From an uncultured bacterium (GTDB taxonomy: Bacteria > Bacillota > Clostridia > Lachnospirales > Lachnospiraceae), in contig CANRVD010000012.1 in the NCBI GenBank assembly GCA_947643145.1, positions 1 to 48,785 of the forward strand: a stretch of DNA of 48,785 nt, read 5' to 3'. The translations under genes were made by a program, and so were the position numbers. The notes under the pieces were generated by a model that saw only the letters and a list, made by a program, of their open reading frames with translations, did not search any database and had not been told where the DNA came from. Below are positions 7-28,018 of this stretch, one piece after another (positions within the stretch are counted from its first letter, which is position 1; each line of letters opens with the position of its first letter).

Positions 7-1035
7 CTACCATAATTGTTTCATCAACTTGTAATAAACCTTAAACTTTTTTACAGAGTTATGCTCTTTATAATAATCGCTGTCTTTATCCAAATATGTG
101 AATACCTCTTCAAGCGAAGATAATTTTAAGTCTTTCGTCGCTTCAGAGGAGTATGCGAGCAGCATTCTTACAAAATATGGAATATCATCCAAAGACAAGT
201 TCATGGCTTTGATATTTTTAATTCCCTGTGCTAGCAAGACATTACAGGCTTCCTCCTTATCTCCCTCAGCATAAAAATCAAGAATGCTTCCCACCAAATA
301 TCTTGTGAACTTAGCCTCCGGATAATGAAACACCATATTCTCCAGCAAACGAATTTCCCCCACATTTTGTAGCACATAGGATAATGCAAACTCCTCTGCA
401 CACTGATACTGGAACCGTTGGAATATTAAATCAGAAACCTCCAAAACAGTATTTAATATATCTCTGTTTTTATATGCAATTCCAATTATTCCTGAATTAT
501 GCGGAACAAAATCTACATCAATTGGATATTTACCATTGAATATAAAATTCTTCTCCCGAATATAACTATAAAAGTGAATCCTTTGTAGCGTTAAATGATT
601 TACGTCCTTAAATCTCGTATTCGCAATCGCGTCAAGCGCTTTGTTTATAGGCGTACAAGAGGAGTGCATATAAAACACGCCCTCTATGATATCATCAAAT
701 ACATAGCTTATGTCCTGTAGTACAATCGTATCCGTGTCTACAAATAGCAAGTCACATCCATACCGTTCAAAACAATATTCTAAACATTTTATCTTACAAC
801 GCACATAATATGTATAATCCAAAGACCATTCTTTGAGCAACCGCGCATCAACTTCTTCAATAATGATAGTGGGCAAACCCGCTATAGAGCCATACGCCTC
901 CTTATCATCCGTTACTACTATGATTTTACAATCATTATTTGTTGCGTCCCGATGTTGCTGAAAAGACTTAATCGAATACAAACTTTCCTTTTTGTATCTA
1001 CTATCCCCAAAGGCACAATAAACAAGCGCTTTCAT
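7..1035 (-). CDS. GT-A-like glycosyltransferase, cluster gene
   Basis: A 342-aa cytosolic protein with no signal peptide or membrane segment. It begins with a beta strand (MKALVYCAFGDSRY) typical of a nucleotide-sugar binding fold. It carries a hydrophobic strand followed by an acidic DxD motif at residues 100-102 (FVDTDTIV), the metal/nucleotide-diphosphate site of GT-A glycosyltransferases. A later PHNSGIIGI stretch resembles the acceptor-side loop of GT8/GT-A-like enzymes. The donor and acceptor cannot be read from sequence. It lies 8 bp downstream of the neighbouring uncharacterised gene, so it belongs to the same operon, and it is the last complete gene before the window edge. Family assignment (GT-A) is fairly sure; substrate is unknown. 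Confidence 0.65.
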   Translation of the reverse strand: MKALVYCAFGDSRYKKESLYSIKSFQQHRDATNNDCKIIVVTDDKEAYGSIAGLPTIIIEEVDARLLKEWSLDYTYYVRCKIKCLEYCFERYGCDLLFVDTDTIVLQDISYVFDDIIEGVFYMHSSCTPINKALDAIANTRFKDVNHLTLQRIHFYSYIREKNFIFNGKYPIDVDFVPHNSGIIGIAYKNRDILNTVLEVSDLIFQRFQYQCAEEFALSYVLQNVGEIRLLENMVFHYPEAKFTRYLVGSILDFYAEGDKEEACNVLLAQGIKNIKAMNLSLDDIPYFVRMLLAYSSEATKDLKLSSLEEVFTYLDKDSDYYKEHNSVKKFKVYYKLMKQLW

Positions 1036-1043
1036 ATCACAAA

Positions 1044-1721
1044 CTACCTCCTGCTCTGAGGCAACTCCCCATATCTTGCGCCCAGATATCCCGCATCAAA
1101 CTGAGGCATCCAACCATGAACGTTAAATCTCTTCAGTCGGTCAAATCCTGCCATTAGCATTCCCGAACGGTCATATCTTCCCTTTGTAATCCAAATCCAA
1201 TACTCCTGGTCTGGGTATTCTCCGGTCAATTTTTTAACAACTTGCAAAAATACCAGATATCTCTCGAGCGTAAAATGTACATAATTATTATTGTCAATGA
1301 AATATGTCATATCAATACCTGTCCGTCTGATGTTTTCAGGACTTTGCGTCTTTTTGGTCTTAAACCAAAAATCATCCGGTTCTACCGTTTCACCGACCAA
1401 CTGATCAGTCAGCGCCCAACTGTCAATATGAAACATTTCACCTAACTGTGCTTTTGATACTCCCTTAGGAACACAAAGAATAACCTCATTATTTTCCTCT
1501 GCCTCCTGAATCTCCTCCTCTGTGAATGGACACTGTGATAATTCAAACTTTTTTTGGGTAATATTCTCGATGCCATAATTAGTATAGAACTGATAAAACC
1601 ACTCTCTAATCTCCTGCCCTCTGGTAAAAGTCGTACCTAGGGCACTACGCAGTTTCTTCCCATCTATCTTTTTATCATCTACCAACTGCAAAATTAATTT
1701 AATACAAGAATCTTCTAACAT
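1044..1721 (-). CDS. Uncharacterised cluster protein, paralogue of the gene at 7462-8142
   Basis: A 225-aa soluble protein that I do not recognise. It is clearly related to the 226-aa protein encoded at 7462-8142. Shared blocks include the central NNEVxxCxPKGV motif, a following Phe/Leu-x3-Leu-x3-Phe segment, an E-x2-D-x-WF element, a T-x-ERY-x-V/F-L helix, and a C-terminal W-x5-RY-x3-ML-x-GGFD...WMPxF...Y-x-G-x-R signature. The paired copies inside one operon suggest either two partners of a heteromer or two enzymes acting on related intermediates. It starts 20 bp after the FAD oxidoreductase gene. The conserved Cys, Trp and Arg positions are visible, but they do not match any catalytic motif I can name. 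Confidence 0.6.
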   Translation of the reverse strand: MLEDSCIKLILQLVDDKKIDGKKLRSALGTTFTRGQEIREWFYQFYTNYGIENITQKKFELSQCPFTEEEIQEAEENNEVILCVPKGVSKAQLGEMFHIDSWALTDQLVGETVEPDDFWFKTKKTQSPENIRRTGIDMTYFIDNNNYVHFTLERYLVFLQVVKKLTGEYPDQEYWIWITKGRYDRSGMLMAGFDRLKRFNVHGWMPQFDAGYLGARYGELPQSRR

Positions 1722-1741
1722 TTTTCTTGACTCCTTCCAGC

Positions 1742-2887
1742 TTAAATTTTATATACTTCTGTATGCTTTCTTGCATTAGAGAAACGTTCTTCACGAAAAA
1801 CGTCTATATTTAGCGTTTTCGCACAGCCATCTATGATTTCCTCCGACAAAAGTTTACCCGCAATGAAACCATGCATGAAACCATGTCCGTTAAACCCGCA
1901 GAGATTATAAAAGGATTTCACAGCTTTGCTCTCACCAATAATGGGATTCCCATCTGGTGTTTCGTCGTAAAAACCAATCCACTCCGTCACCGGAAATGAG
2001 TCTTCCAACTGTTTGAACCTTTCAATGCCAATTCTACAGTGCTTCAAAAACCAATCATAATCAATGTTCTCAGAATCTTTCATTTTCTCATCATATACTC
2101 GGTTATACTGCGTTAAAATTCCTTTACCTTCTTCATGATAGCCAATACCTATATCAGAAAAAATCACGACCGGAAAGTCTTTATTCACGCCTTCTATTTC
2201 GCTGGTTACCAGCACTTGCTGAAAGGCCCTGTTAATAGGAATGTTTAAACCAACCATCGCTGCTATTTCCTTACTCCAAGGTCCCGCAGCATTAACCATC
2301 TTCTTTGCCATAATATTTTGTTTATTTGTTTTAACAATAAAGATATCTTGCTCGACACTTATGCCGCTGACCTCTTCATTTATTAAAAACTCTACACCGT
2401 AGTTTAGCAGATTCCTATACAGATAGTTAACCACCGTATTAACATCCAATATCCCTTCGTCTTCACAATAAGTTATAAATTCTACATCTTTATAATTCAG
2501 CTGTGGAACCTTTTGAGCAAATTCGTCAGAACTATATATCTTAGTCGGTATCTTTTTTCTGTTTTGCATGCTCACAGCTTCTTTATATATCTTGACTCTT
2601 TCAGAATCCGTAACAACAAATGCATATCCACAATTTGAAAATTTAAAATCCAAATCATTTTCCATTTGAATCTTTTCAATTATTTTTCTGTTCTCAACGG
2701 ACATGTCAACATTTATTTCTGATGCAAACTGATAACGAATTCCCCCGGCGCACCTTAGGGTACTATGTCCGCCTATATAGCCTTGACGCTCAACAATTAC
2801 TATGCCTTTGATTCCCCTTAAGCACAGATGATAGGCCGTGCTCAATCCCATTATGCCTCCGCCAACAATTACAATTTCGTAGTTCAT
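1742..2887 (-). CDS. FAD-dependent oxidoreductase, DAO (glycine/sarcosine oxidase-like) family
   Basis: A 381-aa flavoprotein. The N-terminal dinucleotide fold is seen as GGGIMG at residues 9-14, followed by an acidic VIVER strand end and a GGHSTLRCAGGIR segment typical of the DAO superfamily. The C-terminus has TPDGNPIIGES and GFNGHGFMHG, which close over the flavin. Family members oxidise C-N bonds of amino acids (glycine oxidase, sarcosine and dimethylglycine dehydrogenases). Some pass electrons to electron transfer flavoprotein, and this cluster carries its own ETF pair (8155-9911). I start at 2887, not at an upstream in-frame ATG (2905), because a GGAGG ribosome site sits 6 bp before the 2887 ATG. 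Family is secure; substrate is unknown. Confidence 0.8.
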   Translation of the reverse strand: MNYEIVIVGGGIMGLSTAYHLCLRGIKGIVIVERQGYIGGHSTLRCAGGIRYQFASEINVDMSVENRKIIEKIQMENDLDFKFSNCGYAFVVTDSERVKIYKEAVSMQNRKKIPTKIYSSDEFAQKVPQLNYKDVEFITYCEDEGILDVNTVVNYLYRNLLNYGVEFLINEEVSGISVEQDIFIVKTNKQNIMAKKMVNAAGPWSKEIAAMVGLNIPINRAFQQVLVTSEIEGVNKDFPVVIFSDIGIGYHEEGKGILTQYNRVYDEKMKDSENIDYDWFLKHCRIGIERFKQLEDSFPVTEWIGFYDETPDGNPIIGESKAVKSFYNLCGFNGHGFMHGFIAGKLLSEEIIDGCAKTLNIDVFREERFSNARKHTEVYKI

Positions 2888-2923
2888 GTATGCCCTCCAT
2901 TTCATGTAATTAATCAGCGAAAG

Positions 2924-3166
2924 CTAATTGGTCATACATTCTTTTACATATTCTGTTAAGGTTTCAAATGAGTGAAAAGCTTCAATAATCTTTTCTTCAT
3001 CGTCAATAATCACGTTACAGCGCTTTTCAATCTCTATAATAATTTGTAGGGCATCCAGCGAATTAATCGAATATTCTTCGATTAAATTCACCCCTCGCAG
3101 ACTCTCAACGCTGAACTCTTTGCCCAGAATCTCACTCAATATTATTATCAGATTTTCTTCTACCAT
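2924..3166 (-). CDS. Acyl/peptidyl carrier protein (first copy)
   Basis: An 80-aa acidic four-helix carrier protein. The phosphopantetheine attachment site is Ser36 in the INSLDAL motif at the start of helix II (usual form DSL; here Asn replaces Asp). A typical downstream helix (EIEKRCNVIIDDE) and a C-terminal FETLTEYV helix follow. It would hold an acyl or aminoacyl group as a thioester for neighbouring enzymes. The free-standing AMP-forming ligase two genes upstream (5259-6701) is the natural candidate for loading it. It is one of two carrier proteins in the cluster; the other is at 11069-11335. No phosphopantetheinyl transferase is seen in the window. Confidence 0.88.
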   Translation of the reverse strand: MVEENLIIILSEILGKEFSVESLRGVNLIEEYSINSLDALQIIIEIEKRCNVIIDDEEKIIEAFHSFETLTEYVKECMTN

Positions 3167-3194
3167 GTTTTTGTAATACCTCCTTTTTAATACA

Positions 3195-4367
3195 TTAAAT
3201 ATTGCTTAGAACACTTTTTACGATATCAATGCATGTTTTGTTTTTATTATAAGATTTAATAATTTCAGAGAAATTGTGAAGCGCCTTTCGATTGTATGTA
3301 TTGAAATGATTATCAACGATTTCGACTAATTTGCTCGGTCTAAATTTGCTGACGTGCATCCAGTAAGTCAAATTGTTTTTAACCATTTGCGCAGCATTGT
3401 ATGATCGTTCAAAATGATTTCCGGATAATACAATACTAGGTTTTTCGTTAAGCACAGTCGTCAACATCATGTCTTGTCCACCGTGAAAAATCACAAAAGA
3501 ACATCTTTTTATTATTTGATTTATATTCACATATTCGACAAATTTGATATTGTCAGCATTACTTGCCTCAATTTCTTCTCGTTGGAAGTGAAAACCGGTA
3601 CTGCATAATACATTATACTTTCCATCCTGAAAAGCATCCTTGATGATTTCACTATACATTTTTATTGGCAACGCACCCATGCTTGTGTAAATAAAAATCA
3701 AAGGCCGCTGGTCAAATTCATATTCAAAGGTGTCTTTACCTTCCTCCGAGTAATTTAGTATTGCCCCGCCATATTGGACATTGGTAAAATCCTTAATATC
3801 AGATTCCAGTTCTAAAATCGAAGGAACAATGATTTTATCTGCCCTGTCAAAAACCAGTTCACATACATGATCCAGTTTAGGAAGATGATATTTATTCAGT
3901 ACGCCGTTAAAATTTGTAACCAACCGATCACCTGCCGCTTTATTCGCTTCAAAATAAGGTGTTGACGGCGTACTTGCGAACTGAACAACCGAAATTCTTT
4001 CTTTATTTCCGGCAATGCATGCACTTGGATTAGACTGCGTAAAAATTAAATCCGGCTTAAAATCCCGAATAATTTCGGTATATCTCTTTGTAGCGTATTC
4101 GACATAAGGGACATCTGCCATTCCTGTCCATTCCACAAAATCAACGTAATTATGGATATCCACATAACTATTATTGTAAATTGGTGGTTTACAATGATAA
4201 TATTTGAATTTTTCCTTATCAATTAAGGACGCAACGTTCCCACCTAAGACAAAAGCAATTTCAAATCCTTCCTTGATTAAATCATGCGCTAATCCTATAA
4301 ATTTTACAGTTGAACCTATCGACCCAGAATTGGGTGGACTGGGCAATATCAGTATTCTTCCTTTCAT
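3195..4367 (-). CDS. GT-B glycosyltransferase, GT1/MGT (UDP-glycosyltransferase-like) family
   Basis: A 390-aa protein. The N-terminal Rossmann half opens with ILILPSPPNSGSIGSTVKF, and the C-terminal half holds the donor site FVIFHGGQDMMLTTVLNEKPSIV, equivalent to the HGGxGT block of UDP/TDP-glycosyltransferases of natural-product pathways. The following LSGNHFERSYNAAQMVKNN matches the acceptor/donor loop of the family. Such enzymes move a sugar from a nucleotide donor to a small-molecule acceptor in the cytosol. Its start lies just after the stop of the SDR gene (2 bp apart), so the two are probably co-translated. Donor and acceptor are not predictable from sequence. Confidence 0.78.
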   Translation of the reverse strand: MKGRILILPSPPNSGSIGSTVKFIGLAHDLIKEGFEIAFVLGGNVASLIDKEKFKYYHCKPPIYNNSYVDIHNYVDFVEWTGMADVPYVEYATKRYTEIIRDFKPDLIFTQSNPSACIAGNKERISVVQFASTPSTPYFEANKAAGDRLVTNFNGVLNKYHLPKLDHVCELVFDRADKIIVPSILELESDIKDFTNVQYGGAILNYSEEGKDTFEYEFDQRPLIFIYTSMGALPIKMYSEIIKDAFQDGKYNVLCSTGFHFQREEIEASNADNIKFVEYVNINQIIKRCSFVIFHGGQDMMLTTVLNEKPSIVLSGNHFERSYNAAQMVKNNLTYWMHVSKFRPSKLVEIVDNHFNTYNRKALHNFSEIIKSYNKNKTCIDIVKSVLSNI

Positions 4368-4368
4368 C

Positions 4369-5262
4369 TCATCCTACGTCACTGAATAAAGAATTCAGTC
4401 CCTCTCTGTATGTCTTATATACAAAATCATATTTTAATACTTTACAAATCTTCTCATTTGACATATTGATATTAAGCGTTCTCAAACCAAAAATGCTCCA
4501 ATACAGTCTTTCATTCGTGCCGTCATATTCTGAAAGCTTAATGAGAAAGTCCCTACTATGCTCCTTTATGTATTGATAAAAAGTAATCTGCTCAACAGGG
4601 CAGCAATCACATATATTAAAAACGCCTTCAATCTTGGAATCCAAAATGATTTTATATAAAATGTTAATAAAATCCGTTATATGAATCTTAGAGGACACTG
4701 AACTGCCATCGCCTAATAGTGAAACACTTTTCTTGCTGCAAGGATTATACATTCCCGGTCCATATACTTCTCCGATCCGCAAAATAACACATCTCATATT
4801 TTCCCGTTCTGCTTCGTTTTGCAATAACCGTTCTGCTCTACAGATCAAGCTGCTATATGTCTTTTCCCCTTCTTTACTGCAAACGTCATCTTCCTCCGCA
4901 CATGTCTTTCGACCGTCAATATCACTATAGACCGCCCCATTACTTGCATAAATAAAACGCTTCACATGATACTCTCTGCATAGCTCAAGACAATTCAAAA
5001 GACCTTTTATTAGGAAATCGTAATTCCGTTCATAATTGCTTAAGTGTGCTCCCGCCAAATACAAAACAGTATCCGCCATAGATACCGCCGTTTTTAAGGA
5101 ATCCTTATCCAATATATTGCCAACATAATAATGATTTAGATGAACGTCTTCCTTCGTATCTAAGATACTGTAATCAATATTGTCTCTCTCAAATAATTCC
5201 GTGATTCTGGTACCTATGTATCCAGTTCCCCCAATAACCAAAACCATGCGTTTCACCTTCAA
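4369..5262 (-). CDS. NAD(P)-dependent epimerase/dehydratase-like extended SDR lacking the active-site lysine
   Basis: A 297-aa extended short-chain dehydrogenase. The cofactor motif GGTGYIG is at the N-terminus, followed by DTKED, a VLYLAGAHLS loop, the RFIYASNGAVYSD strand, and a C-terminal substrate domain with LRIGEVYGPGMYNP. Members epimerise, reduce or dehydrate nucleotide sugars. Oddly, the Tyr-x3-Lys site reads Y-S-S-L-I with the frame fixed by the following CRAERLL helix, so the catalytic lysine is replaced by isoleucine. The enzyme may therefore be inactive as a redox enzyme, or have a changed role. The start overlaps the ligase stop by 4 bp (ATGA type). Confidence 0.78.
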   Translation of the reverse strand: MKVKRMVLVIGGTGYIGTRITELFERDNIDYSILDTKEDVHLNHYYVGNILDKDSLKTAVSMADTVLYLAGAHLSNYERNYDFLIKGLLNCLELCREYHVKRFIYASNGAVYSDIDGRKTCAEEDDVCSKEGEKTYSSLICRAERLLQNEAERENMRCVILRIGEVYGPGMYNPCSKKSVSLLGDGSSVSSKIHITDFINILYKIILDSKIEGVFNICDCCPVEQITFYQYIKEHSRDFLIKLSEYDGTNERLYWSIFGLRTLNINMSNEKICKVLKYDFVYKTYREGLNSLFSDVG

Positions 5263-6701
5263 ACCCGTCGGATCTTCTTGCCATTTGCAGTTCGTTCTAT
5301 CTTATCGACAAATATGATATTAGACGGAATTTTGTAATCACTCAGTTTCTGTCTGCAATATTGCTTCAATTCAATGTCATCCATACAGATTTCTTTATTG
5401 ACGCACTGTACTTTTGCCACAATATACTCATTATGTTTATCATCAATGCAAGAAAAAACTGAAGCATCCTCTACTTTCTCATAATTAACTAATACCTTTT
5501 CAATTTCTATGGGATCAACCAAATGGCCCGCAATATTCATGGTGTCAGCAATTCTTCCCGAGATAATCACTCCATTCTCGGTTATGGCTCCATAATCTCC
5601 TGTTTTGTAATAGGTTTTGCCATGGAGTAGTATTCCAAGCGCACTATTATCATAGTTAAGATAACCTTGCGAATTATTGATTCCTGCCACCACTAGCTCT
5701 CCATACTCTCCAGCATCCAATATCTTCCCATCCTTAATCACTTCTACTTCTGTACCTTTTAATGGATGCCCGACATATTTCATGGCAATTTCTATTTGAT
5801 CCGAGTAGTTAACGGCAATCACTCCGCATTCCGACGAGCAATAGATAGAGCTAATGCAAATATTGGCAACATCATGAAATTGCTTGAAAATTGTCTCGCT
5901 CATATAGGAAGAACTTGTCAAACACATCCGTATGCTTTTCCAGTTAATTAAGTGGACACTATTTGATTCCAACATTTTCGTATAGAGCAGCGGAACCATA
6001 AATAATATCGTGACACCTTGAGAATTAATTGTTTTCATTACGCTTCCCGCCAGAAACGTAATATTAACCGCAACAGATGCTCCTTTTAAAAGTGCCGGAA
6101 GATAAATTGTATTCAGCGCTCCCGTCATCATCGGCGAGATTGGAGTATAGCAAACATCTTTCTTTTCTATTTTTATTAACTCGGCAAGACTGTTTATGTT
6201 ATTATAAAGAGCTTGATCCGAAAACATCACGCACTTGGGTTTCCCTGTAGTACCGGAAGTAAAATAGCATATTATAATATTTTCATCAATTTGAAGCTTG
6301 TCCTCTCTATAGTCATCAATACCCAGTAAATTAACCTTCCCATCGCTCCATATTTTTTCAGCCCTGTATGAGCCGAGACTTATATCCTCTTGCATAAAAA
6401 TATAATTCGCCTTGCATTCGCCAATGATCATTTCATTATATTCTTTTTTAGCTGCCTCAAAAGGAATGACAATCCCATGCTTTATAACCGCCATAAAAAT
6501 ACATATATATTCAAACGGATCCTTTACATATACCAAATATCTCGCTTTGTCATGCTGCTTGGGCAACTCACTTAAAAGCCGGTCGTACGTCTCATATTTA
6601 TGTAGAATATCAGAATAAAGATAATTGTTGTTATTGAGATAATAAAGGGCTTTCCTGTCTCCCGAATTGCGTATGCTTTCTAATAGCTTTTGTAAAACCA
6701 C
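5259..6701 (-). CDS. Free-standing AMP-forming acyl/aminoacyl ligase (adenylation enzyme)
   Basis: A 480-aa ANL-superfamily enzyme. The P-loop core motif FTSGTTGKPK is at residues 147-156. A later YKTGDYG block is followed by the hinge SGRIADTMNIAGHLVDPIEIE, and the catalytic C-terminal lysine sits in ANGKKIRR. It should activate a carboxylic acid with ATP and hand it to a thiol, most simply one of the two carrier proteins in the cluster. There is no fused carrier or condensation domain. Translation starts at GTG, supported by an AGGTGA ribosome site 6 bp upstream. The substrate could be an amino acid or a short acid; the specificity pocket cannot be assigned by eye. Confidence 0.85.
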   Translation of the reverse strand: MVLQKLLESIRNSGDRKALYYLNNNNYLYSDILHKYETYDRLLSELPKQHDKARYLVYVKDPFEYICIFMAVIKHGIVIPFEAAKKEYNEMIIGECKANYIFMQEDISLGSYRAEKIWSDGKVNLLGIDDYREDKLQIDENIIICYFTSGTTGKPKCVMFSDQALYNNINSLAELIKIEKKDVCYTPISPMMTGALNTIYLPALLKGASVAVNITFLAGSVMKTINSQGVTILFMVPLLYTKMLESNSVHLINWKSIRMCLTSSSYMSETIFKQFHDVANICISSIYCSSECGVIAVNYSDQIEIAMKYVGHPLKGTEVEVIKDGKILDAGEYGELVVAGINNSQGYLNYDNSALGILLHGKTYYKTGDYGAITENGVIISGRIADTMNIAGHLVDPIEIEKVLVNYEKVEDASVFSCIDDKHNEYIVAKVQCVNKEICMDDIELKQYCRQKLSDYKIPSNIIFVDKIERTANGKKIRRV

Positions 6702-6711
6702 CTAATATCAC

Positions 6712-7425
6712 CTACCAATCCATTACCAATGCTTTTTGCTTTAATTTTGCCTTATCATATGTTCTTAAATAAAACTGTAAGTTTTCACTATGGACGTGAG
6801 CGGTTATCCAATCAGAAGGCTCCAGATTTTTAAGTATATCATTAATCTCATTCCGATATGCGTTATTAAAAATACATTTCCCCGTTTCACATTCTATACT
6901 GAATACTTCTCCCGTAGCATTATCCCTGATGCCAATTCCATTCTCTTTAGCCATAATTAACGCATATTCTTCAACCTCCTTAACATAAGAGACATTAATG
7001 TCATTGTCTTTGAGCACATACTCTATCACCTTCTCCAATAAACCTTCTGAATCTATACTCAAACAATATGCATCATGATATTGGCATATCTCAAGGACAT
7101 TAAAGGCTATAACAAAATAATCATAAAAAAGAAAGGGGATTATATTCTCTGAGCTGATATGCATCACTTTCGTTAATGAAACATCACTTTCTTTAATAAA
7201 CTGATATTCATGGAAATTCCCCCAAAATACGACCATTCCATTAACCCAAGAATCCGAATTGCAAGTATTCTCAACAATTTTCCCAACGCTCAATCCGCAT
7301 CCCAAATAATCATACAACTTATTATAGCCCAAGAATTCCTGCATATATGGATATAACTGTGTATGTAAAGTCTTGATTATTATCCCCTTTTCTTCGGACT
7401 TGTCTTTAGTACTATTTCCCATCAT
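6712..7425 (-). CDS. Uncharacterised 237-aa cluster protein
   Basis: Soluble, 237 aa, not recognised. It has no signal peptide, membrane segment or obvious nucleotide-binding loop. Visible features are a middle hydrophobic stretch (IIPFLFYDYFVIAFNVLEI), a GIGIRDNATGEVFSIE beta-rich part, and a C-terminal half ending in DWITAHVHSENLQFYLRTYDKAK. It sits 10 bp before the ligase gene in the direction of transcription, so co-expression is likely. It could be an acyl-carrier partner, a thioesterase-like protein or a structural partner of the ETF block, but nothing in the sequence settles this. Confidence 0.5.
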   Translation of the reverse strand: MMGNSTKDKSEEKGIIIKTLHTQLYPYMQEFLGYNKLYDYLGCGLSVGKIVENTCNSDSWVNGMVVFWGNFHEYQFIKESDVSLTKVMHISSENIIPFLFYDYFVIAFNVLEICQYHDAYCLSIDSEGLLEKVIEYVLKDNDINVSYVKEVEEYALIMAKENGIGIRDNATGEVFSIECETGKCIFNNAYRNEINDILKNLEPSDWITAHVHSENLQFYLRTYDKAKLKQKALVMDW

Positions 7426-7461
7426 TTTTCGAGCTTCCTATCAATTTTTCCTTAATTAATA

Positions 7462-8142
7462 TTATATATGATCGCAAATTCTTATTCCCCTGCCTCCCAC
7501 ATAAGGGGTATGGAAATTGGGCATCCACGCCTGAAACGATAACTTCTTATTAGAATCAAAGCCACCTATAAGCATTGCTTTTTTCTCATATCTAGTCATG
7601 GGAATCCATGTCTTATATGTATCATCAATATTCATGTCATAAAAAACATGCAGCGTATTAACCAAGACAATATATCTCTCTGCTGTGAGATTTAACAAAT
7701 TGTTTTTCTTAATAATCTGCTGTATTTCTCTTCCCATACAGTCCATATACTCAGGATTCTTCTCTATTTTGGCGGCAAACCACAAATCCTCTTCTTCAAT
7801 GTGCCTGCTCACTAAACTGTCTTCATTTATCCACAACTTACAACGAAACAGTTCGCATAATTCGGATAATGTTACTCCTTTAGGCAAGCAGCAGAGTACT
7901 TCATTGTTTTCCTTAATTTGTTTCAGTTCATCCTGTGTAAAATACGGTGCAGAAAGTTTCAGTTTTCGCTTTATGACATCTTCAATTCCCAGTGAAATAT
8001 ACCATCTCTCCATTTTGCATCTAACAACTTCCGGAATGGTTTCATCCTCTTCAATTTCGGCAAATCTACTTAAATCGCTTTTTTTCAAACTACCATCCTG
8101 TAACATCTCTTCTAAGATATTGACCATCAAATTTGCATCCAT
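7462..8142 (-). CDS. Uncharacterised cluster protein, paralogue of the gene at 1044-1721
   Basis: A 226-aa protein, second member of the pair described at 1044-1721. It shares the NNEVLCCLPKGV block, the LTAERYIVL helix and the C-terminal W-x5-RYE-x3-MLIGGFD...WMPNF...YVGGRG signature. Start choice: the open frame reaches a TTG at 8148, but an AAAGGAG ribosome site lies 7 bp before the ATG at 8142, which I take as the start. It is sandwiched between etfA and the 237-aa unknown gene. The function is unknown. The position next to the ETF genes makes a role beside carrier-bound redox chemistry plausible, but that is inference. Confidence 0.6.
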   Translation of the reverse strand: MDANLMVNILEEMLQDGSLKKSDLSRFAEIEEDETIPEVVRCKMERWYISLGIEDVIKRKLKLSAPYFTQDELKQIKENNEVLCCLPKGVTLSELCELFRCKLWINEDSLVSRHIEEEDLWFAAKIEKNPEYMDCMGREIQQIIKKNNLLNLTAERYIVLVNTLHVFYDMNIDDTYKTWIPMTRYEKKAMLIGGFDSNKKLSFQAWMPNFHTPYVGGRGIRICDHI

Positions 8143-8154
8143 AACCAAACTCCT

Positions 8155-11041: not shown

Positions 11042-11068
11042 TTATTACACCCCATAAAGCCAGTTATC

Positions 11069-13872: not shown

Positions 13873-13920
13873 AGATAGCTGTACCTCTACACCTACGTAT
13901 TAATTGTCTGACACATACTG

Positions 13921-14502: not shown

Positions 14503-14606
14503 ACGCACCTCAAATCTTATTCTTTCATTTTACAATCATGCTGTTCCGCAATCATATTTTTGTTTAACATCTTATGTGTAAAAACAGTTCGCAGTCGCTT
14601 ATGGCA

Positions 14607-16094: not shown

Positions 16095-16100
16095 ATTGTA

Positions 16101-18065: not shown

Positions 18066-18109
18066 ATGTGCTCCATTCATTTACCTAAAGCCACTTTAAA
18101 AAGTATCTG

Positions 18110-18925: not shown

Positions 18926-18928
18926 AAC

Positions 18929-20830: not shown

Positions 20831-20882
20831 GTACAAATCCTTCTCTTCATTGTTTTAGCACTACTATTAATACCTAAAACAC

Positions 20883-23414
20883 CTACTTGTTTTGTGAGAT
20901 ATATTCCTTAATGCAACGACCTGTATATGACTCTGGATTCATAAGCAACCCCTTCAAACTTCCCTGATAAACCAGTTTGCCGCCTTCAGCTCCTCCACCA
21001 GTCCCCAAATCAACTATGTGGTCAGCCTCCAGCATAAGATCAAGGTTATGCTCTATCACAACTAACGTATGACCATTTTGCTTCAAGCCCTTCATAATCA
21101 CAACTAATTTTTCAACATCCCTCGGATGCAAACCTGTAGTAGGTTCATCAAACACATACAAGTCTTTTCCCTTTTTATTTTGTGAAAGCTCCCTGACAAG
21201 TCTGATTCTTTGGCATTCTCCGCCAGACAATTGATTTAATTGATGTCCAATTGTCAAATATCCCAATCCGATATCACTCATTGCTTTCAGAACCCTGCAT
21301 ATGCTGGGCACATCACAAAATAAGGTTAATGCGTTATCACAAGTAGTATTTAAGACATCCGTAATACTCTTGCCTTTGTATTTAACCTCCAGAACATTTT
21401 TATTAAAGCGTTTCCCTTTACATACCGGACACTGGACTTCCATAGTCGGCATTAAAACCATGTTAAGTTCAACCGTTCCCTGTCCTTCACAGTATTCGCA
21501 CCGTCCGCCCTTTACGTTAAACGAGAAATCCTTCTTATCCAATCCCAATATTTTGGCTTTCGGCTGTTTTTCAAAAAGCTTTCGAATATCCGTATAGATA
21601 TCCGTATATGTTGCTATATTGGATCTTGCGCCCTTACTTATTGGCTTTTGGGACATACAAATAACATTATCATTTTTTTCATAACCTTCAATGTTTTCGT
21701 CCTTAACGCCATTCTTATAGTAGTTTTCCAATGTCTCTACAAGCACGTCAAAAATTAAAGAAGATTTTCCGCTGCCAGAAACACCCGTGATCACGTTGAT
21801 TTTATTTATTGCAATATTGACATTGATATCTTTCAGATTATGTTTTCGGGCATTCTTTATTTTTATGCAGTCGCCTTGCGTATAATCTATTCCCTTCAAA
21901 GTATAATTCTTTTTTAGCAAATAATTTTTCATTATGGAATTATCTGCTTTTTTAAATTCATCCATAATTCCCGCAAACAGCAATTGTCCACCATTAGCGC
22001 CTGCTTCCGGACCAATTTCCACAATATAATCTGCTTTTCTGATTAGGTCCACATCATGCTCTATGATAATGATTGTATTACCATTATTTTTCAATACGTT
22101 AATGGCGTTTATAATCATATCATTGTCAGCAGGGTGCAATCCTATGGTGGGCTCATCAAAAATATAAATCATTTCCGTTAAATTAGAGCCCAAAATATTT
22201 GCCACACGAAGTCTCTGATGTTCACCGAACGAAAGAGAAATAACGGAACGTGATAACGATAAATAACCCAATCCTAATTCAATCAGTTCATTTAACCTTT
22301 TTATGATTAATTCTACAACTTCTCCGACGAGTTTATACTCAATATGATTTTCTCTATATGCTTTATAGCCTAAAATCCAATTTCGTGTTTCTTTAAGTGA
22401 ATATAGCATCAATTGGTTGATTGATAGGTCATTAACCTTCACCATTTCGAGGTCCTCTGACATTCGGCTTCCATTGCATTCCGTACACTCTACCCTAGTC
22501 ATAAACTTACCAAAACGCTCTGTCCAGCCCTCATTATCCAATAATTTCTCGTACGTGGTTTCCATGTCATTTATGAATCCCATGAACAAATACTTCTTTT
22601 CGGTCGGTCTTTCTACGTTTGGAAAGTACTTCATAAAACGCTGATCATCATTACCATAATACAGAAATGCTTTTGCTTCAGGTGAAAGATTCTTTATTTT
22701 GTCGTTCGGATCAAACTCAAATCCATAGTATTTACTTGCTGCAAGAACTATGGGGACATAAACCTTGATCTCATTTTTACCCCAGCTCTTAAAAGCTCCA
22801 TCATAAACCGACAATTCTTCGTCAATCGTGACGCTTGTATTTACGCTATATATATAGCCAATGCCATGACATTTAGGACATGCGCCATTTGGATTGTTAT
22901 ACGAAAAGTCGGCCATTCGGAATTTTCTAATTTCATGTCCGCAAGCAGGACATTTATCCCTTAAAATCTCAGACGGATTATTCACATCATCAGTCCAATC
23001 GGAATCATTCTCATACTTCGAGAGCAAGGGAAGGATTTTATATCTGCAATGACTGCATTCACGAACTCCTACTTGAGCAAATAACAACCTGATATACCTA
23101 AGTATCTCCGTTGCCGTCCCGACGGTTGAACGAGGATTACGGTTCGTGATATGTTGATCTATATATATAACCGGAGACAGTCCTTCAATACTGTCTACTA
23201 AAGGTTTTTTTACCTGATTAAGGCTCCCCATCGTATCAAAAAGCTGTCGCATACTTTCTTTTTGCAATATATCTATTATAAGAGAGGACTTACCAGATCC
23301 TGAAACCCCAACTACTGCAGTAATCTTATTTCTGGGTATTGCCAAACTGATATTTTTTAAGTTATTTTCTTTTGCGCCCTTAATAAATATATACTTCTGT
23401 GTTTCTTCACCCAT
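20883..23414 (-). CDS. UvrA2/DrrC-like ABC ATPase, probable self-resistance protein
   Basis: An 843-aa soluble tandem ABC protein of the UvrA family. It has two P-loops (GVSGSGKSS twice), two Walker B blocks (IFDEPTIGLHP and VFDEPTTGLHP), signature motifs LSFGE and LSGGE, and zinc-type CxxC pairs (CSHC...CPAC, CPKC, CTEC, CEYC...CPVC). It is about 100 residues shorter than housekeeping UvrA. It belongs with the UvrA2/DrrC-like forms often found in antibiotic clusters, where they protect DNA from the producer's own compound. It overlaps the ABC exporter gene by one base (TAATG), tying it to export. A second cellular UvrA is expected elsewhere. Confidence 0.82.
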   Translation of the reverse strand: MGEETQKYIFIKGAKENNLKNISLAIPRNKITAVVGVSGSGKSSLIIDILQKESMRQLFDTMGSLNQVKKPLVDSIEGLSPVIYIDQHITNRNPRSTVGTATEILRYIRLLFAQVGVRECSHCRYKILPLLSKYENDSDWTDDVNNPSEILRDKCPACGHEIRKFRMADFSYNNPNGACPKCHGIGYIYSVNTSVTIDEELSVYDGAFKSWGKNEIKVYVPIVLAASKYYGFEFDPNDKIKNLSPEAKAFLYYGNDDQRFMKYFPNVERPTEKKYLFMGFINDMETTYEKLLDNEGWTERFGKFMTRVECTECNGSRMSEDLEMVKVNDLSINQLMLYSLKETRNWILGYKAYRENHIEYKLVGEVVELIIKRLNELIELGLGYLSLSRSVISLSFGEHQRLRVANILGSNLTEMIYIFDEPTIGLHPADNDMIINAINVLKNNGNTIIIIEHDVDLIRKADYIVEIGPEAGANGGQLLFAGIMDEFKKADNSIMKNYLLKKNYTLKGIDYTQGDCIKIKNARKHNLKDINVNIAINKINVITGVSGSGKSSLIFDVLVETLENYYKNGVKDENIEGYEKNDNVICMSQKPISKGARSNIATYTDIYTDIRKLFEKQPKAKILGLDKKDFSFNVKGGRCEYCEGQGTVELNMVLMPTMEVQCPVCKGKRFNKNVLEVKYKGKSITDVLNTTCDNALTLFCDVPSICRVLKAMSDIGLGYLTIGHQLNQLSGGECQRIRLVRELSQNKKGKDLYVFDEPTTGLHPRDVEKLVVIMKGLKQNGHTLVVIEHNLDLMLEADHIVDLGTGGGAEGGKLVYQGSLKGLLMNPESYTGRCIKEYISQNK

Positions 23415-25225
23415 TATTTATATCTCCTAGACTGCATTTCAAACATTTTAGCATATGTGCCATTGTTCCTTATTAACTCTTCATGCGAACCATCTTCAGC
23501 CACCTTTCCATTTTGGATCAGAATAATCCTGTCCGCCATTTTGGTCGTCGATAGCCTATGAGAAATAATAACAATAGTTCTCTCCGGCAACATATTGAAC
23601 ACCAGTTCATTAAAGTCACTTTCTGCTTTAGGATCCAAAGCACTTGACGGCTCATCTAAGACCACGAGTTTTTTATTACTTAACAGCACTCTTGCCAGCG
23701 CCAGCTTTTGCTTTTGTCCTCCTGAGAATACCACGCCGTCGCCATTAAATTCCCTCGAATAATCGCTGTCTCCTTTATCAGGCAAGCGCTCTATCGCATC
23801 GCTCAGCTTAACCATATCCAACGCCTTATCCAATTTGATGACTTCCGCTTTTTTGTCAACAATGTCCATTTTGACATTCTCATATAGCGTTAACGCAAAC
23901 AGCTGGAAATTTTGAACCAATATACTGCATATATTCTTTCGATAGAACTCCAAGTCATAGTCTCGAATATCAATTCCATTTACCATGATTTTACCTCTGT
24001 CAGGATCATACAGCCTCAGCAGCAACTTGACAATGGTACTCTTTCCCGCACCATTATTGCCGACAATCGCTACTTTTTCATGCGCATTGATTTTTAAATT
24101 TAATCCATTTAAAATATAGTGTTCTCTGTCATATGAGAAAGACACATCAACAAACTCAATTGTGATCGGCATATCGGCGTTGCTTTGCAGCCCTTTATCC
24201 GATACTATGTGGTTTTCCATTTCCATGAAATGAATGAACTTATCGATGTAAATGCTGTTATTATGTAATTCCTTTATTGAATTAACAAAATTATTCATAC
24301 TTCCTTTTATTGTACCGTATGCATTCCACAAAGCAGTCATTGCGTCAAAAGTATATGCACATTTCACAAGAACCATGTAGGCCAAATAAAATAATGTCAC
24401 AAAATCCCCAAGGATTTTCTTCATCAGATTATCGCCAGAGCATAACATCGTCTTTTTTGCCCCATAAGCAGCATGAATCTCACTAAGCCTTCCTGAGGAA
24501 GATGTCAATTTCTCAAACAAAACACCCCCAATGTTTGTCATCTTGATGTCTTTAGCATTTTGTTTTAAGAAAAACATGCGATTCGCATAGTCGATTTCTT
24601 TATTATAAGGCATGGTTTTGTTATAAATTTCGCCGTTAATTTTATTCAGCTTAATCTGATATAAAGAGGAGAGAACGTTAATTACAACTGCCATGATAAA
24701 AACAACAAAATCTAGAGAGCTAATAATATAAAACAATGAGATCAATACTGCTAAGTTTTCAATTAAATTGACAAAATTCCTATAAGTGTGCCAAGCTCTG
24801 GTATTTGATTCATTGTTGGCAATAACCAGATTATTGTAATACTTCTGGTCGTCATAGCAGCCAAGATCAATTGAACTGGATTTTTCAAACATCATTTTTG
24901 TGAAAACACGATTGACCATGATTTCTGCGTTTTTCGTCAAACTATTATTATATATTCCCTCTATGACAGTATTAAACAGCAGCACCAAACCATAATATAC
25001 GCACGTGGCAATAATCAACTGTGTCACGGTTTTCTGTGTTTCTTCCGGATGCGCAATAACAAATTCTACCGCCTTGACAATGTACTGTATAAACAGAACG
25101 TTTCCAACGGTATTGAACAATACACTTCTAAGTATGGTCAGTAATGCGTAGCAGGTAGAATACAGTGGAACTGTTTTAAAAAATATTTTCAACATGTACA
25201 TATTATTATGTATTACTTTTTTCAT
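23414..25225 (-). CDS. ABC exporter half-transporter (permease-ATPase)
   Basis: A 603-aa protein with six predicted membrane helices in the first about 330 residues, then an ABC domain: Walker A GNNGAGKST, Q-loop VQNFQLF, signature FSGGQ, Walker B VVLDEPSSALDP, H-loop ISHRLS. It is of the MsbA/LmrA type and probably pairs with the next half-transporter (25258-27060) as a heterodimer exporting the cluster product or its lipid-linked form. The ribosome site is AAGGAG, 6 bp before the ATG. It has a canonical signature motif, unlike its partner. Confidence 0.85.
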   Translation of the reverse strand: MKKVIHNNMYMLKIFFKTVPLYSTCYALLTILRSVLFNTVGNVLFIQYIVKAVEFVIAHPEETQKTVTQLIIATCVYYGLVLLFNTVIEGIYNNSLTKNAEIMVNRVFTKMMFEKSSSIDLGCYDDQKYYNNLVIANNESNTRAWHTYRNFVNLIENLAVLISLFYIISSLDFVVFIMAVVINVLSSLYQIKLNKINGEIYNKTMPYNKEIDYANRMFFLKQNAKDIKMTNIGGVLFEKLTSSSGRLSEIHAAYGAKKTMLCSGDNLMKKILGDFVTLFYLAYMVLVKCAYTFDAMTALWNAYGTIKGSMNNFVNSIKELHNNSIYIDKFIHFMEMENHIVSDKGLQSNADMPITIEFVDVSFSYDREHYILNGLNLKINAHEKVAIVGNNGAGKSTIVKLLLRLYDPDRGKIMVNGIDIRDYDLEFYRKNICSILVQNFQLFALTLYENVKMDIVDKKAEVIKLDKALDMVKLSDAIERLPDKGDSDYSREFNGDGVVFSGGQKQKLALARVLLSNKKLVVLDEPSSALDPKAESDFNELVFNMLPERTIVIISHRLSTTKMADRIILIQNGKVAEDGSHEELIRNNGTYAKMFEMQSRRYK

Positions 25226-25257
25226 GTTTTACTCCTTGCACTTTATTTACGCACCTA

Positions 25258-27060
25258 TCATTCAATACATGCTTCCGCATCGTTTCTATAGTATTTTGCC
25301 TGCAAATTGAACATATCTGCATATTTTCCATTTTGGCGAATTAATTCATCATGGGTTCCCTGCTCAACAATCTGACCACTTTCCATAAAATAAATCTTAT
25401 CTGCTATTTTAGATGCCGAAAATCTGTGAGAGATATAAATAATGGTCTTATCTGCCAGATAACTATTAATTGTCTCAAAAATCTCTTCTTCTGCAATAGG
25501 ATCAAGTGCGCTGGTAGGCTCATCTAAAATGTAGAGCTGCTTTTCCGGATTGATAAAGATTCTTGCTAACGCCAAACACTGGCTCTGTCCAAGGGAAAGC
25601 ATCTCACCCGAATCAGATAGTTCATGGGTCAGTTGCGTGTTAAAACCATCTTCATAATTGTTTATCTTTTCTTTCAGATGAAGGGTATTCATAATATTTT
25701 GCATTTCCTCATCTGAATAAATCTTCGTATCCATTGCAATATTTTGGCCGATGGTCGTAGCATAAACATTTATGTCCTGAAAAACAATCCCGTACTTGCT
25801 ACGATAATTCTTTAAATTGTAATCACAAATATTCTTTTGATTATAAGTTATGCTGCCCTGATCCGGATCATACAGCCGCAAAATCAGGTTAATCAGTGTC
25901 GACTTCCCTGCCCCATTATACCCAACCAGTGCAATCTTTTGTTTTGGCTGAATTTCCATGCAAATATCCTTCAAAGTATAATTGTCATTATTGTTGTATT
26001 TAAAATATAGGTGTTCTATCTTAATTCCGCAAAAAGATGCGTCCACCATTTCCTCTTTGTGCGATACGATCTTCGGTTCATACCGATAAAATTCATTGAA
26101 TTTGTTTAAGTAGATATTATCATTCAAAATACCATTAAAAGAGCGTACTACAGAAGACGCCCTCCAGGTAAACTGCGCTATCGCCCCCAGCAAAGGCAAG
26201 AACATTGCTATTGTTACCGATTTATCAATGACAATTCTATGTATGGAGACGAGTGTTGTAATACAAGATACAATTCCAAATCCAAAAAAGGCTTGAACAC
26301 TATCAAACATCGATATTTTTCTGTAATACTTTTTTAGAAGCTCCTTCAATCCCCCAAATGCATCATCAATCATTTTATTCAGAACGTTTTTCACATTTGT
26401 GGTTCTCAATTCCTGAGCACATTCTGCCTGAATGGAAATTCTTTTCACGTAATCATATTTTCTTTGATATTTTAAGCTCTCATTCGTATAACGATATCTG
26501 TACCTATTAATAATAGGCTCAAAAAACAATCCCATTAAAACGGAGATAAGCGATATCATTACAATGATGAAATCCACCTGCGCAAAATATCCAATCAACA
26601 CGATAACGCAGCATAAGTGAGAAATAAACTGAGATACGTTATTTAAGATACTCTTTACTCTGTCAAATAAATCATTTAATGCAAACGTTACGTTATCATA
26701 GTATTCCGGATTATCAAAACATTCTATATCAATCGTCGTAATCTTCTTATATATCATTTTTTTTAAAAACAACGAGAGCTTGACGTCATTTTGGGGAACA
26801 TACTTCTGATTATAATAGGAGTTCAGTATTTCAAACAGAATATTGATCAGAACGAAAACAATCAACACCTTACTAATCTCAATGATGTTTTTCCCTTTTT
26901 CAACTGCTTGCATAAAATATGCAAAAAAGAACACATTATAGAATATCAAAAATAAATCATTTATAACTGTAAAAAAAATATTCAGCCATACCCGCGATGC
27001 GGAGGCCTTACATATTGTCTTTAGCATAAATTTATAATTTTTAAAAAAATTATTTTTCAT
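25258..27060 (-). CDS. ABC exporter half-transporter with a degenerate signature motif
   Basis: A 600-aa half-transporter with the same layout as its downstream neighbour: membrane domain about residues 1-320, Walker A GYNGAGKST, Walker B YILDEPTSALDP, H-loop ISHRFS. The signature reads LSLGQ instead of LSGGQ, typical of one site being degenerate in heterodimeric exporters. An AAAGGAG ribosome site precedes the ATG. It is the first intact gene of the operon downstream of the promoter region near 28.1 kb. The substrate is presumably the cluster product. Confidence 0.85.
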   Translation of the reverse strand: MKNNFFKNYKFMLKTICKASASRVWLNIFFTVINDLFLIFYNVFFFAYFMQAVEKGKNIIEISKVLIVFVLINILFEILNSYYNQKYVPQNDVKLSLFLKKMIYKKITTIDIECFDNPEYYDNVTFALNDLFDRVKSILNNVSQFISHLCCVIVLIGYFAQVDFIIVMISLISVLMGLFFEPIINRYRYRYTNESLKYQRKYDYVKRISIQAECAQELRTTNVKNVLNKMIDDAFGGLKELLKKYYRKISMFDSVQAFFGFGIVSCITTLVSIHRIVIDKSVTIAMFLPLLGAIAQFTWRASSVVRSFNGILNDNIYLNKFNEFYRYEPKIVSHKEEMVDASFCGIKIEHLYFKYNNNDNYTLKDICMEIQPKQKIALVGYNGAGKSTLINLILRLYDPDQGSITYNQKNICDYNLKNYRSKYGIVFQDINVYATTIGQNIAMDTKIYSDEEMQNIMNTLHLKEKINNYEDGFNTQLTHELSDSGEMLSLGQSQCLALARIFINPEKQLYILDEPTSALDPIAEEEIFETINSYLADKTIIYISHRFSASKIADKIYFMESGQIVEQGTHDELIRQNGKYADMFNLQAKYYRNDAEACIE

Positions 27061-27196
27061 AAATACTCCTTTAATCTCGCATTCTTGTCATCTCCAAAAT
27101 CTGATTTATAGGTAAATGCACCCAGCATCCGCTTTTTGCATCATTGTAACTCAACTGCTCCCTCTGCAATGACTGTTATCTGCTTCGCTTTTTTCC

Positions 27197-27607
27197 CTAA
27201 CGCTTCATGCTGTCCTTATAAAACCGGCTATCACTATAAGTGCTCTGCTCAAACTGATAATCCGTAACGACAGAATCGTTTTTATTCACGGTTTCTTCTA
27301 TATTGGAAATATACCCCTGATATTCTTTCCAAGCTTTTTCACGGAAAATTGCCTCCGGGTCTGACGGGTTCTGGAGCATCCCGAAACGGAAACCGCAATC
27401 TTCCTTTGGGCGCAGACGACACGCAAATTCCTTTACCACAATCTGTTTTGACAGGCAGCGTACAAGAAAATAGTATTCTGTTACATCGTCAAAGTCGCTG
27501 CCATTACTGTAACAAAACACTTTATTGTAATCATTGGCATCACAGTAATGTTCCAATCCTCGAACAAGATCGTCCTGTCCATTTTGGTGAAGGAAGATAA
27601 CTAATTT
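27197..27607 (-). pseudogene. Gene remnant of unknown family
   Basis: The frame is open from about 27607 to a stop at 27197 (about 136 codons), with no ATG or good ribosome site at its beginning; the only start-like codon inside is a TTG at 27556. The translated part (VIFLHQNGQDD, then LEHYCDANDY, then RLRPKEDCGFRFG, ending QFEQSTYSDSRFYKDSMKR) vaguely recalls the N-terminal region of resolvase-type recombinases, but the catalytic Ser motif is absent. Base composition is a little less AT-rich than the cluster around it. It most likely is a fragment left at a rearrangement joint between the ATP-grasp remnant and the ABC genes. Confidence 0.4.
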
Positions 27608-27619
27608 GGCTCAAATCAG

Positions 27620-28018
27620 TTAAAATAAAATAGGAAGAATCTTAATACCTAACTCAGATATTTTCAATGAAGCCTCTAATTTGTTCATGAATAATTTCAA
27701 TGTTTTCTCTGCCGGAATCACTAATTTGCAATCTTTACTAAGATTATTTTGACCGAATACGAGTAATTCTTCTTCATCAACAGAAATAATGAAATCAATC
27801 AGATTGCCCTTATATATTTCTTTTATATAATCTGTGTAATTTGTTTCGTGTATGTTAGGGATTGAAATATACGTATCTACTAACAGGCTTCCGCTCACAT
27901 AACCTATTGTTCTGCGGTTACATCGCCATATTTCAACCCCCAAAGTTGATTTGTTTTTTAATAACTTTGTGATAGCAATTGAGGCATAACAGTGGATTTG
28001 TGTAATTAATATTTTCAC
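27620..28018 (-). pseudogene. Truncated ATP-grasp protein (N-terminal pre-ATP-grasp domain only)
   Basis: 132 aa, starting at GTG with an AAGGA site about 6 bp upstream. The protein begins MKILITQIHCYASIAITKLL, continues with YISIPNIHETNYTDYIKEIY and FIISVDEEELLVF, and ends with NKLEASLKISELGIKILP. This follows the N-terminal half of CarB-like ATP-grasp ligases up to the point where the ATP-binding domain should begin, and then stops. Intact relatives are about 320-400 aa and join carboxylates to amines. The gene is first behind the predicted cluster promoter, so transcription still runs through it. It is probably broken by a deletion, though a short regulatory product cannot be excluded. Confidence 0.6.

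Follow-up and report, generated by a model that had tools for sequence, protein, structure and literature searches.

A probable biosynthetic gene cluster family, mostly of Clostridia, that may build and oxidize a carrier-bound acid without oxygen

What could be made by a run of genes that combines free carrier proteins with an electron-transfer flavoprotein (ETF), a U32-family protein, carbamoyltransferases and a UvrA-like protein, and do such genes form a unit at all? These questions are raised by 23 closely spaced minus-strand genes at positions 7-27060 of the window, that is, the whole stretch of DNA analyzed here, which covers positions 1-48,785 of contig C12 (CANRVD010000012.1) from a probably anaerobic bacterium, a likely member of Lachnospiraceae. 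The source assembly consists of 153 contigs and is 84% complete; base 1 of the window is the first base of the contig. We propose, with a rough probability of 0.6 for the explanation as a whole, that the run is a member of a rare biosynthetic gene cluster family of Bacillota, mostly Clostridia, in which a carrier-bound acid would be assembled and oxidized without O2, glycosylated and carbamoylated, with self-protection by a UvrA2-like protein. Biosynthetic gene clusters are already known as a kind; the core gene set apparently is a new variant, and no description of the family was found among the top matches of text searches of open papers, with subscription journals and MIBiG lying outside the search.

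A gene cluster family with a shared core

Homologous clusters were detected in four genomes, namely Acetivibrio mesophilus N2K1, Lacrimispora algidixylanolytica SPL73 (a member of Lachnospiraceae), an uncultured Clostridia metagenome-assembled genome (MAG), and G320, a 6.8-Mb genome from another class. The surroundings in these relatives were annotated by blastp at 1e-3 against the proteins of the window and of G320; in Lacrimispora, 60 kb were read. Common to all five clusters, which are spread over five genomes from at least three families, are EtfA and EtfB, a DAO flavoenzyme, a free ligase, a short-chain dehydrogenase/reductase (SDR), two paralogous proteins denoted X (types I and B), protein N, at least two carrier proteins, and a short protein, H. 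EtfA and EtfB are fused in two of the five (Acetivibrio and the MAG); some carrier proteins of the relatives score weakly, and one from Acetivibrio has no Pfam match. The UvrA2-like protein, a GT28-type glycosyltransferase and a close U32 protein are present in the same four clusters, that is, in all except Lacrimispora. Two further proteins are shared by G320, Acetivibrio and the MAG, one of the radical SAM type (51-66% identity with the G320 copy) and the other an aminotransferase of the DegT type (52-59% identity); no aminotransferase was found in the window.

The gene order EtfB-EtfA-X-I-H-ligase-SDR is common to the window, Lacrimispora and G320, with four genes inserted between H and the ligase in G320, and DAO adjoins X-B in four of the five clusters. 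One tree per core gene was built with FastTree (10 genes with five taxa and 2 with four), and the split that unites the window with Lacrimispora was recovered in 9 of the 10 five-taxon trees, with supports of 0.73-0.99; among these nine, the U32 tree uses a distant Lacrimispora copy and the H alignment is weak. Both four-taxon trees, for UvrA2 (0.995) and GT28 (0.797), pair the window with the MAG. Since the genome we take for Lacrimispora is listed in the family of the window genome, the window host probably belongs to Lachnospiraceae as well.

Within the run, 20 of the 22 intergenic gaps are shorter than 50 bp, and there are five overlaps. The cluster occupies a low-GC island (GC of 0.361 for positions 1-28018 vs 0.494 for the remaining window): the GC of individual cluster genes is 33-40%, against 46-54% in ten flank genes, and the GC at third codon positions (GC3) is 0.365 in the cluster open reading frames (ORFs), both edge ORFs counted, vs 0.562 in the same flank genes. 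Given the tight gaps, the GC3 contrast and the recurrence of the core, partly collinear, in distant genomes, the run is more than a chance assemblage; the homologous clusters rule out a chance gene neighborhood. Thus, the reading of the locus as a cluster whose genes co-occur, rather than lie scattered, in relatives is borne out by four homologous clusters that are partly collinear and share a tree split.

The features by which the initial annotation had singled out this cluster fared differently. Homologs of GmhA, GmhB and the GT9-type glycosyltransferase are confined to the window among the five clusters, and carbamoyltransferases were found in the window (two) and in G320 (one); an Anp1-type glycosyltransferase and a GT8-like gene are shared by the window and the MAG. 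Because the heptose genes and double carbamoylation are found in the window alone, they are predicted decorations and not, as had been thought, a family signature. The same applies to the apparent lack of nonribosomal peptide synthetase (NRPS) genes, which had been taken as a defining trait. Apart from the free ligase, no NRPS modules are among the Pfam matches in the window, which opens at the end of a contig. NRPS-type adenylation genes lie within the cluster in each of the four relatives: Acetivibrio has a condensation-adenylation-thiolation (C-A-T)-reductase protein, the MAG an A-T protein, Lacrimispora two A proteins, and G320 an NRPS identified by homology to the Acetivibrio protein. NRPS absence is therefore not a family trait. 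Conversely, the X pair, SDR, H and N, which had gone unmentioned, belong to the conserved core. We suggest that a signature consisting of ETF, DAO, the paired X, the free ligase, SDR and N, joined in most members by UvrA2, GT28 and U32, should replace the earlier one.

The Acetivibrio NRPS (L021, 3772-8247) has a C-A-T organization with a terminal reductase-type domain, and therefore the product of that cluster may leave as an aldehyde or imine. In the genome from which the window comes, contig C71 (L038, 3029-12004) encodes a 2,991-residue multi-module NRPS beside genes that by eye resemble MATE transporters. This NRPS was considered as a missing half of the cluster and set aside: no other C71 ORF has a blastp match to cluster proteins, and it appears to be a different locus. 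A search of this genome for the radical SAM gene of the relatives returned a single 23% match, on contig C15, amid housekeeping-looking genes.

Several other genes were observed in the relatives' clusters or next to them. LoaP antiterminator genes are located upstream of the Acetivibrio cluster (L032, 10924-11466; 177 bits) and the Lacrimispora cluster (L029, 5614-6180, minus strand; 145 bits), both above the cut-off of 125. The Lacrimispora cluster ends with SbnA and SbnB, which are involved in diaminopropionate synthesis (L027, 16252-17214 and 12074-13063, minus strand; both above cut-off). BtrH-like proteins in relatives (L022, 10738-11766; L020, 15202-16155) score 27.5 and 20.5 bits with Pfam, below the cut-off of 29.7, and a G320 protein of similar appearance lacks any Pfam match.

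Gene content of the cluster

The genes are listed below by position in the window, with scores against Pfam and NCBIfam models and their curated cut-offs.

7-1035, minus: A, probable glycosyltransferase, GT8-like by eye; no Pfam or NCBIfam match; homolog in the MAG cluster (28%, 1e-42)
1044-1721, minus: B, protein X type B, adjoins DAO; predicted fold perhaps C-type-lectin-like
1742-2905, minus: C, DAO flavoenzyme, possible amine dehydrogenase; PF01266, 182 bits; 5/5 clusters
2924-3166, minus: D, free carrier protein; PF00550, 20.8 bits, equal to the cut-off; Ser in INSLD
3195-4367, minus: E, GT28-type glycosyltransferase; PF04101, 31.2 bits, cut-off 22; 4/5 clusters
4369-5262, minus: F, SDR of the NAD-dependent epimerase/dehydratase type; PF01370, 78.6 bits; 5/5 clusters
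5259-6701, minus: G, free acyl/aryl-AMP ligase; PF00501, 114.8 bits; TSGTTGKPK and RTANGK motifs; 5/5 clusters
6712-7425, minus: H, short protein, MDR-like by eye, C-terminus DW; no family above cut-off
7462-8148, minus: I, protein X type I, adjoins EtfA; 33% identical to B; 5/5 clusters
8155-9144, minus: J, ETF alpha; PF00766, 80.3 bits, PF01012, 60 bits; 5/5 clusters
9141-9911, minus: K, ETF beta; PF01012, 65.6 bits; 5/5 clusters
9911-11041, minus: L, protein of the U32 family carrying paired Cys, candidate hydroxylase independent of O2; PF01136, 40.8 bits, cut-off 22.4
11069-11335, minus: M, second free carrier protein; PF00550, 33 bits, above cut-off; Ser in MDSF
11594-13351, minus: N, core protein of 585 residues; no Pfam or NCBIfam family above cut-off
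13348-13872, minus: O, GmhB-type heptose bisphosphate phosphatase; TIGR00213, 155.7 bits, cut-off 149.6
13921-14508, minus: P, GmhA-type sedoheptulose-7-phosphate isomerase; TIGR00441, 164.1 bits, cut-off 209.45
14607-16094, minus: Q, GT9-type (heptosyltransferase-like) glycosyltransferase; PF01075, 24.3 bits, cut-off 22
16101-18080, minus: R, O-carbamoyltransferase 1; PF16861 (Carbam_trans_C), 190.3 bits; HTLAH, EIGPRALG and NTSLN motifs; TobZ among solved relatives
18110-18925, minus: S, Anp1-type glycosyltransferase; PF03452, 30.5 bits, cut-off 28.8; homolog in the MAG cluster (34%, 3e-56)
18929-20836, minus: T, O-carbamoyltransferase 2; PF16861, 182.9 bits; 47% identical to R, with the same kinds of motif
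20883-23414, minus: U, UvrA2-like protein, probable self-protection; TIGR00630, 814 bits; PF17755; 4/5 clusters
23414-25225, minus: V, ABC exporter half 1; PF00005, 103.5 bits
25258-27060, minus: W, ABC exporter half 2; PF00005, 100.4 bits
27197-27556 and 27620-28018, minus: two remnant-like edge ORFs of doubtful membership; the first without match, the second an ATP-grasp N-terminal piece

The profile scores agree with the initial annotation on the carriers, ligase, DAO, EtfAB, U32, carbamoyltransferases, UvrA-like protein and exporter halves. The assignment of the heptose genes holds in part: GmhB passes one model and misses two others, and GmhA remains under its cut-off. Likewise, three of the four proposed glycosyltransferases are recognized by Pfam (GT28, GT9 and Anp1-type), and the fourth (7-1035) matches no model. 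The cluster had been drawn too far, to position 28018; its last convincing gene begins at 27060. The second ORF beyond that point is a 132-residue N-terminal ATP-grasp piece (PylC-like_N, 27.6 bits; N-terminus of PRK12767, 35 bits). The island is adjoined by a RACo-like gene (corrinoid protein reactivation) at 28725-30200 that has matches in all 28 genomes of the genus, but those beyond the window locus are just pieces with about 30-50% identity. An Rfam search of the window yielded nothing reaching the gathering score.

Proteins X, H and N

The two X paralogs belong to no Pfam or NCBIfam family above cut-off, and one sole Cys (position 83) is invariant across eight X sequences. Every one of the five cluster genomes was seen to carry two copies, and X was absent from all other sampled genomes. 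Among 299 genomes from the window's family, queried with a single protein, one had X; the figures were 2 of 392 for the order, 2 of 391 for the class, 2 of 398 for the phylum and 1 of 394 for the family to which G320 belongs. These samples overlap, and each figure counts either the window genome or G320; judged by coordinates, the class sample also contains the Acetivibrio genome and the order sample that of Lacrimispora. A pattern scan of a collection of 84,980 species returned 31 stretches, 5 of which encode relatives (four loci in three genomes); G320 is not among them, being either absent from the collection or overlooked by the scan. None of 43 pattern stretches in viral contigs encodes an X relative, comparison with plasmids gave no match, a search of a viral fold library gave none with E <= 0.001, and a sequence search of PDB gave four matches, the best with E of 0.24. 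The modeled fold is perhaps C-type-lectin-like. In the genus, a search for the cluster with carbamoyltransferase R as query matched 4 of 28 genomes, outside the window genome only weakly (best 1e-22).

Protein H has a counterpart in all five clusters by position and C-terminal motif, with identities of 17-27%; the window and Lacrimispora versions have no blastp match to other H proteins at 1e-3. Homologs of N in all four relatives are 25-32% identical to the window copy. A first guess by eye that N is a transglutaminase was not confirmed: the structure model (pLDDT 56.7) is too weak for use, and the best Foldseek rows, all with E > 0.001, are several unrelated chains, including NTF2/ketosteroid-isomerase-like ones.

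A predicted O2-independent pathway

In the ligases of all five clusters, the stretch that aligns with the amino-acid site is devoid of Asp. We infer that the ligase is of a non-amino-acid type and would attach a carboxylic acid other than an alpha-amino acid to one of the free carriers.

Among the solved relatives of DAO, the best is 1y56_B (157 bits; deposited as sarcosine oxidase), which we take to be a proline dehydrogenase subunit, followed by dimethylglycine dehydrogenase (90 bits), an enzyme that hands electrons to ETF. L-proline and dimethylglycine dehydrogenases are thus the two best kinds of solved relative; unlike them, the cluster DAO is encoded with its own ETF and with carrier proteins, and oxidases of the family match it too. 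This context is consistent with DAO oxidizing the carrier-bound intermediate at a C-N bond, with electrons passing to EtfAB, not to O2. Conversion of prolyl-ACP (acyl carrier protein) to pyrrolyl-ACP was considered for this step since 1y56_B is the top match; we do not propose it, as the Asp of amino-acid-activating enzymes is missing from the ligase. The G320 EtfA (L015, 18017-19219) has an N-terminal Cys-rich stretch, two-cluster ferredoxin-like by eye, that is not present in the window EtfA.

The U32 protein of the window contains the Cys arrangement CX3C-X25-CX3C and a C-terminal CX4CX2CX2C. The former four Cys are kept as CX3C-X25..29-CX3C in all four close sequences (the window and three of the four relatives); the Lacrimispora homolog is distant (25%) and retains three of the four. 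Like the U32 oxidases (UbiU, UbiV, TrhP and RNA-modifying kin), the protein has the U32 domain and, in a different spacing, four Cys that might bind a 4Fe-4S cluster; unlike these, the cluster protein has four further conserved C-terminal Cys and lies in a biosynthetic cluster. U32 oxidases perform O2-independent hydroxylation, with prephenate as the likely oxygen source; this is a candidate activity of the cluster U32, which may add a hydroxyl without O2. A DAHP synthase gene that could supply chorismate or prephenate flanks the MAG cluster at its start (L031, 17388-18221, minus strand).

SDR, H and GT28 would reduce or epimerize and glycosylate the carrier-bound chain, comparable to the early assembly of mitomycin C (MitE, MmcB, MitB, MitF, MitD, MmcS). 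Shared with mitomycin are a free acyl ligase, a free ACP, a reductase-type SDR, a carbamoyltransferase, a glycosyltransferase that may act on an ACP-bound acid, a possible DNA target and, in three relatives, a radical SAM protein. Mitomycin provides a precedent for glycosylation of an ACP-bound acid, as described in the excerpted text of PMC8621148; in the window, the corresponding genes are present and adjacent, and ACP-dependent glycosylation is putative. In the window strain, decoration of the product would involve heptose-type sugars, carbamoyl groups and additional glycosyltransferases. Both R and T have the C-terminal domain and the motifs of O-carbamoyltransferases of the TobZ and NodU type; unlike these, they are two copies, 47% identical, in one cluster and score far under the NodU cut-off (162 and 146 vs 1000).

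The ABC pair would export the product, and the UvrA2-like protein would protect DNA. Compared with UvrA 3pih, the latter is short by about 97 residues in the part ahead of residue 154 (which aligns with 251 of 3pih), with only 31 residues separating the CXXC pairs at 120 and 155; the shortened stretch is presumably the site of the UvrB-binding domain. With the domain so placed, the protein appears to lack it, as expected of the UvrA2/Ecm16 type. PF17755, which we take to be the DNA-binding insertion domain, is present (46.5 bits). Thus, like Ecm16, DrrC and other cluster-borne UvrA-like self-resistance proteins, it is short before residue 154, keeps the DNA-binding domain and is cluster-encoded; it differs in that its scores are closer to UvrA than to Ecm16 and that two more CXXC pairs are kept, and the Bacillota clusters are differently composed. 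Cluster-borne UvrA-like proteins shield producers of DNA-binding drugs, according to the excerpted texts of PMC10192343 and PMC10413001. If the UvrA2-like protein indeed protects DNA, binding to DNA or damage to it is the most likely action of the product, as the presence of this protein hints.

The idea of a carbamoylated glycoside built on a carrier-tethered acid without oxygen thus stands in its main lines: an acid is likely, glycosylation and carbamoylation genes are there, ETF and U32 suit independence from O2, and the hosts are mostly clostridial; the traits once given as its signature do not stand.

Counterevidence and alternative explanations

Several observations weigh against the pathway and self-protection proposed here. 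With 814 bits, the UvrA2-like protein exceeds the cut-off of the UvrA equivalog model TIGR00630 (730), and by its scores it does not form a group apart from UvrA (UvrA 3pih, 666 bits; UvrA2 2vf7, 493; Ecm16, 401). In all four UvrA2-like proteins, two CXXC pairs precede the module-2 pair, those at 120 and 155 being kept; these two remaining pairs presumably form zinc module 1. The 60 kb read in Lacrimispora contain the core without UvrA2, GT28 or a close U32, and therefore DNA targeting cannot hold for the whole family. Of the 35 solved matches of DAO many are oxidases, as are its best NCBIfam models, and none of the 25 NCBIfam rows among the matches listed reaches its cut-off. The U32 protein is far under the cut-offs of TrhP (33 vs 534 bits) and UbiU (20 vs 440 bits), and its Cys spacing differs from the motif CX6CX15CX3C described for U32 oxidases in the excerpted text of PMC11574389. 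The N tree pairs the window with the MAG (0.997) instead of Lacrimispora. Finally, a heptose nucleotidyltransferase of the HldE type was not found in the one assembly of the window strain, 84% complete, in a search confined to TIGR02199; in a control search, HldE had a match in 11 of 14 named genomes, above cut-off in 3.

Some of these points favor the strongest rival, which we nevertheless consider unlikely: the core could make a non-toxic specialized molecule, such as a redox cofactor, signal, siderophore or glycolipid, with UvrA2 being a passenger or a general repair protein. This would fit the retention of the core without UvrA2 in Lacrimispora, the equivalog score, and the frequent occurrence of ETF, DAO and SDR enzymes in primary metabolism. 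However, UvrA2 lies inside the cluster in four of the five genomes, the same four that have GT28 and the close U32, and its tree pairs the window with the MAG as that of GT28 does; furthermore, the rare, patchy distribution, the exporters and the NRPS-type genes of the relatives fit a secreted antibiotic-type product.

It is also improbable that two adjoining loci have been read as one, with a carrier-protein cluster at 7-13351 and, separate from it, a locus at 13348-27060 for a heptose/carbamoyl glycan and for export. GmhA, GmhB and GT9 are without homologs in the relatives, as this would predict, and the longest internal gap, of 258 bp, is at 11335-11594; but the MAG cluster interleaves UvrA2, the ABC pair, the Anp1-type glycosyltransferase and the GT8-like gene with the core, and the entire run is on one strand with similar GC all along, N overlapping GmhB by 4 bp.

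Membership in a known, named cluster type, mitomycin-like for instance, seems slightly less probable still. The text excerpted from PMC8621148 describes mitomycin counterparts of the ligase, the ACP and the ACP-dependent glycosyltransferase, of the carbamoyltransferase and of the radical SAM protein that three relatives carry. Unlike in mitomycin clusters, no synthase of 3-amino-5-hydroxybenzoate (AHBA) was seen in the clusters, the hosts are mostly clostridial and the relatives carry NRPS-type genes; the G320 aminotransferase fits scyllo-inositol and perosamine enzymes (6e-53 to 2e-52) better than AHBA synthase (7e-34), so that assignment to the AHBA/mitomycin group was rejected. We know of no mitomycin counterpart of the ETF-linked DAO, U32, X or N, and the open-paper text searches returned no description of such a type among their top matches. 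A surface polysaccharide or capsule locus with modified sugars, which the glycosyltransferases, heptose genes and ABC exporters might suggest, is very improbable, given that the Pfam matches of 7-27060 include no flippase, polymerase or lipid-carrier sugar transferase, that the relatives carry NRPS-type genes, and that carrier proteins, the ligase and UvrA2 are, to our knowledge, unusual in capsule loci.

Implications

The biosynthetic routes of strict anaerobes are little understood, and how oxidized, reactive molecules are made without O2 is an open question. The O2-free assembly proposed here can be taken one step further, to a tentative idea that we would not yet bet on: the O2-requiring steps might have been replaced as a set, with oxidation by EtfAB and DAO, hydroxylation by U32 and the two X proteins, whose sequence family would be new, acting on the carrier-bound intermediate, to yield a DNA-targeting warhead that each strain decorates in its own way. 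If true, antibiotic-type biosynthesis would gain, as far as our searches reach, its first U32 enzyme and its first dedicated pair of ETF and amine dehydrogenase. The family offers a concrete, testable gene set with two named carriers, A. mesophilus N2K1 and L. algidixylanolytica SPL73. If the role of UvrA2 is as in Streptomyces, a probable member of Lachnospiraceae would have the genes for a compound that targets DNA, with relevance to competition among microbes.

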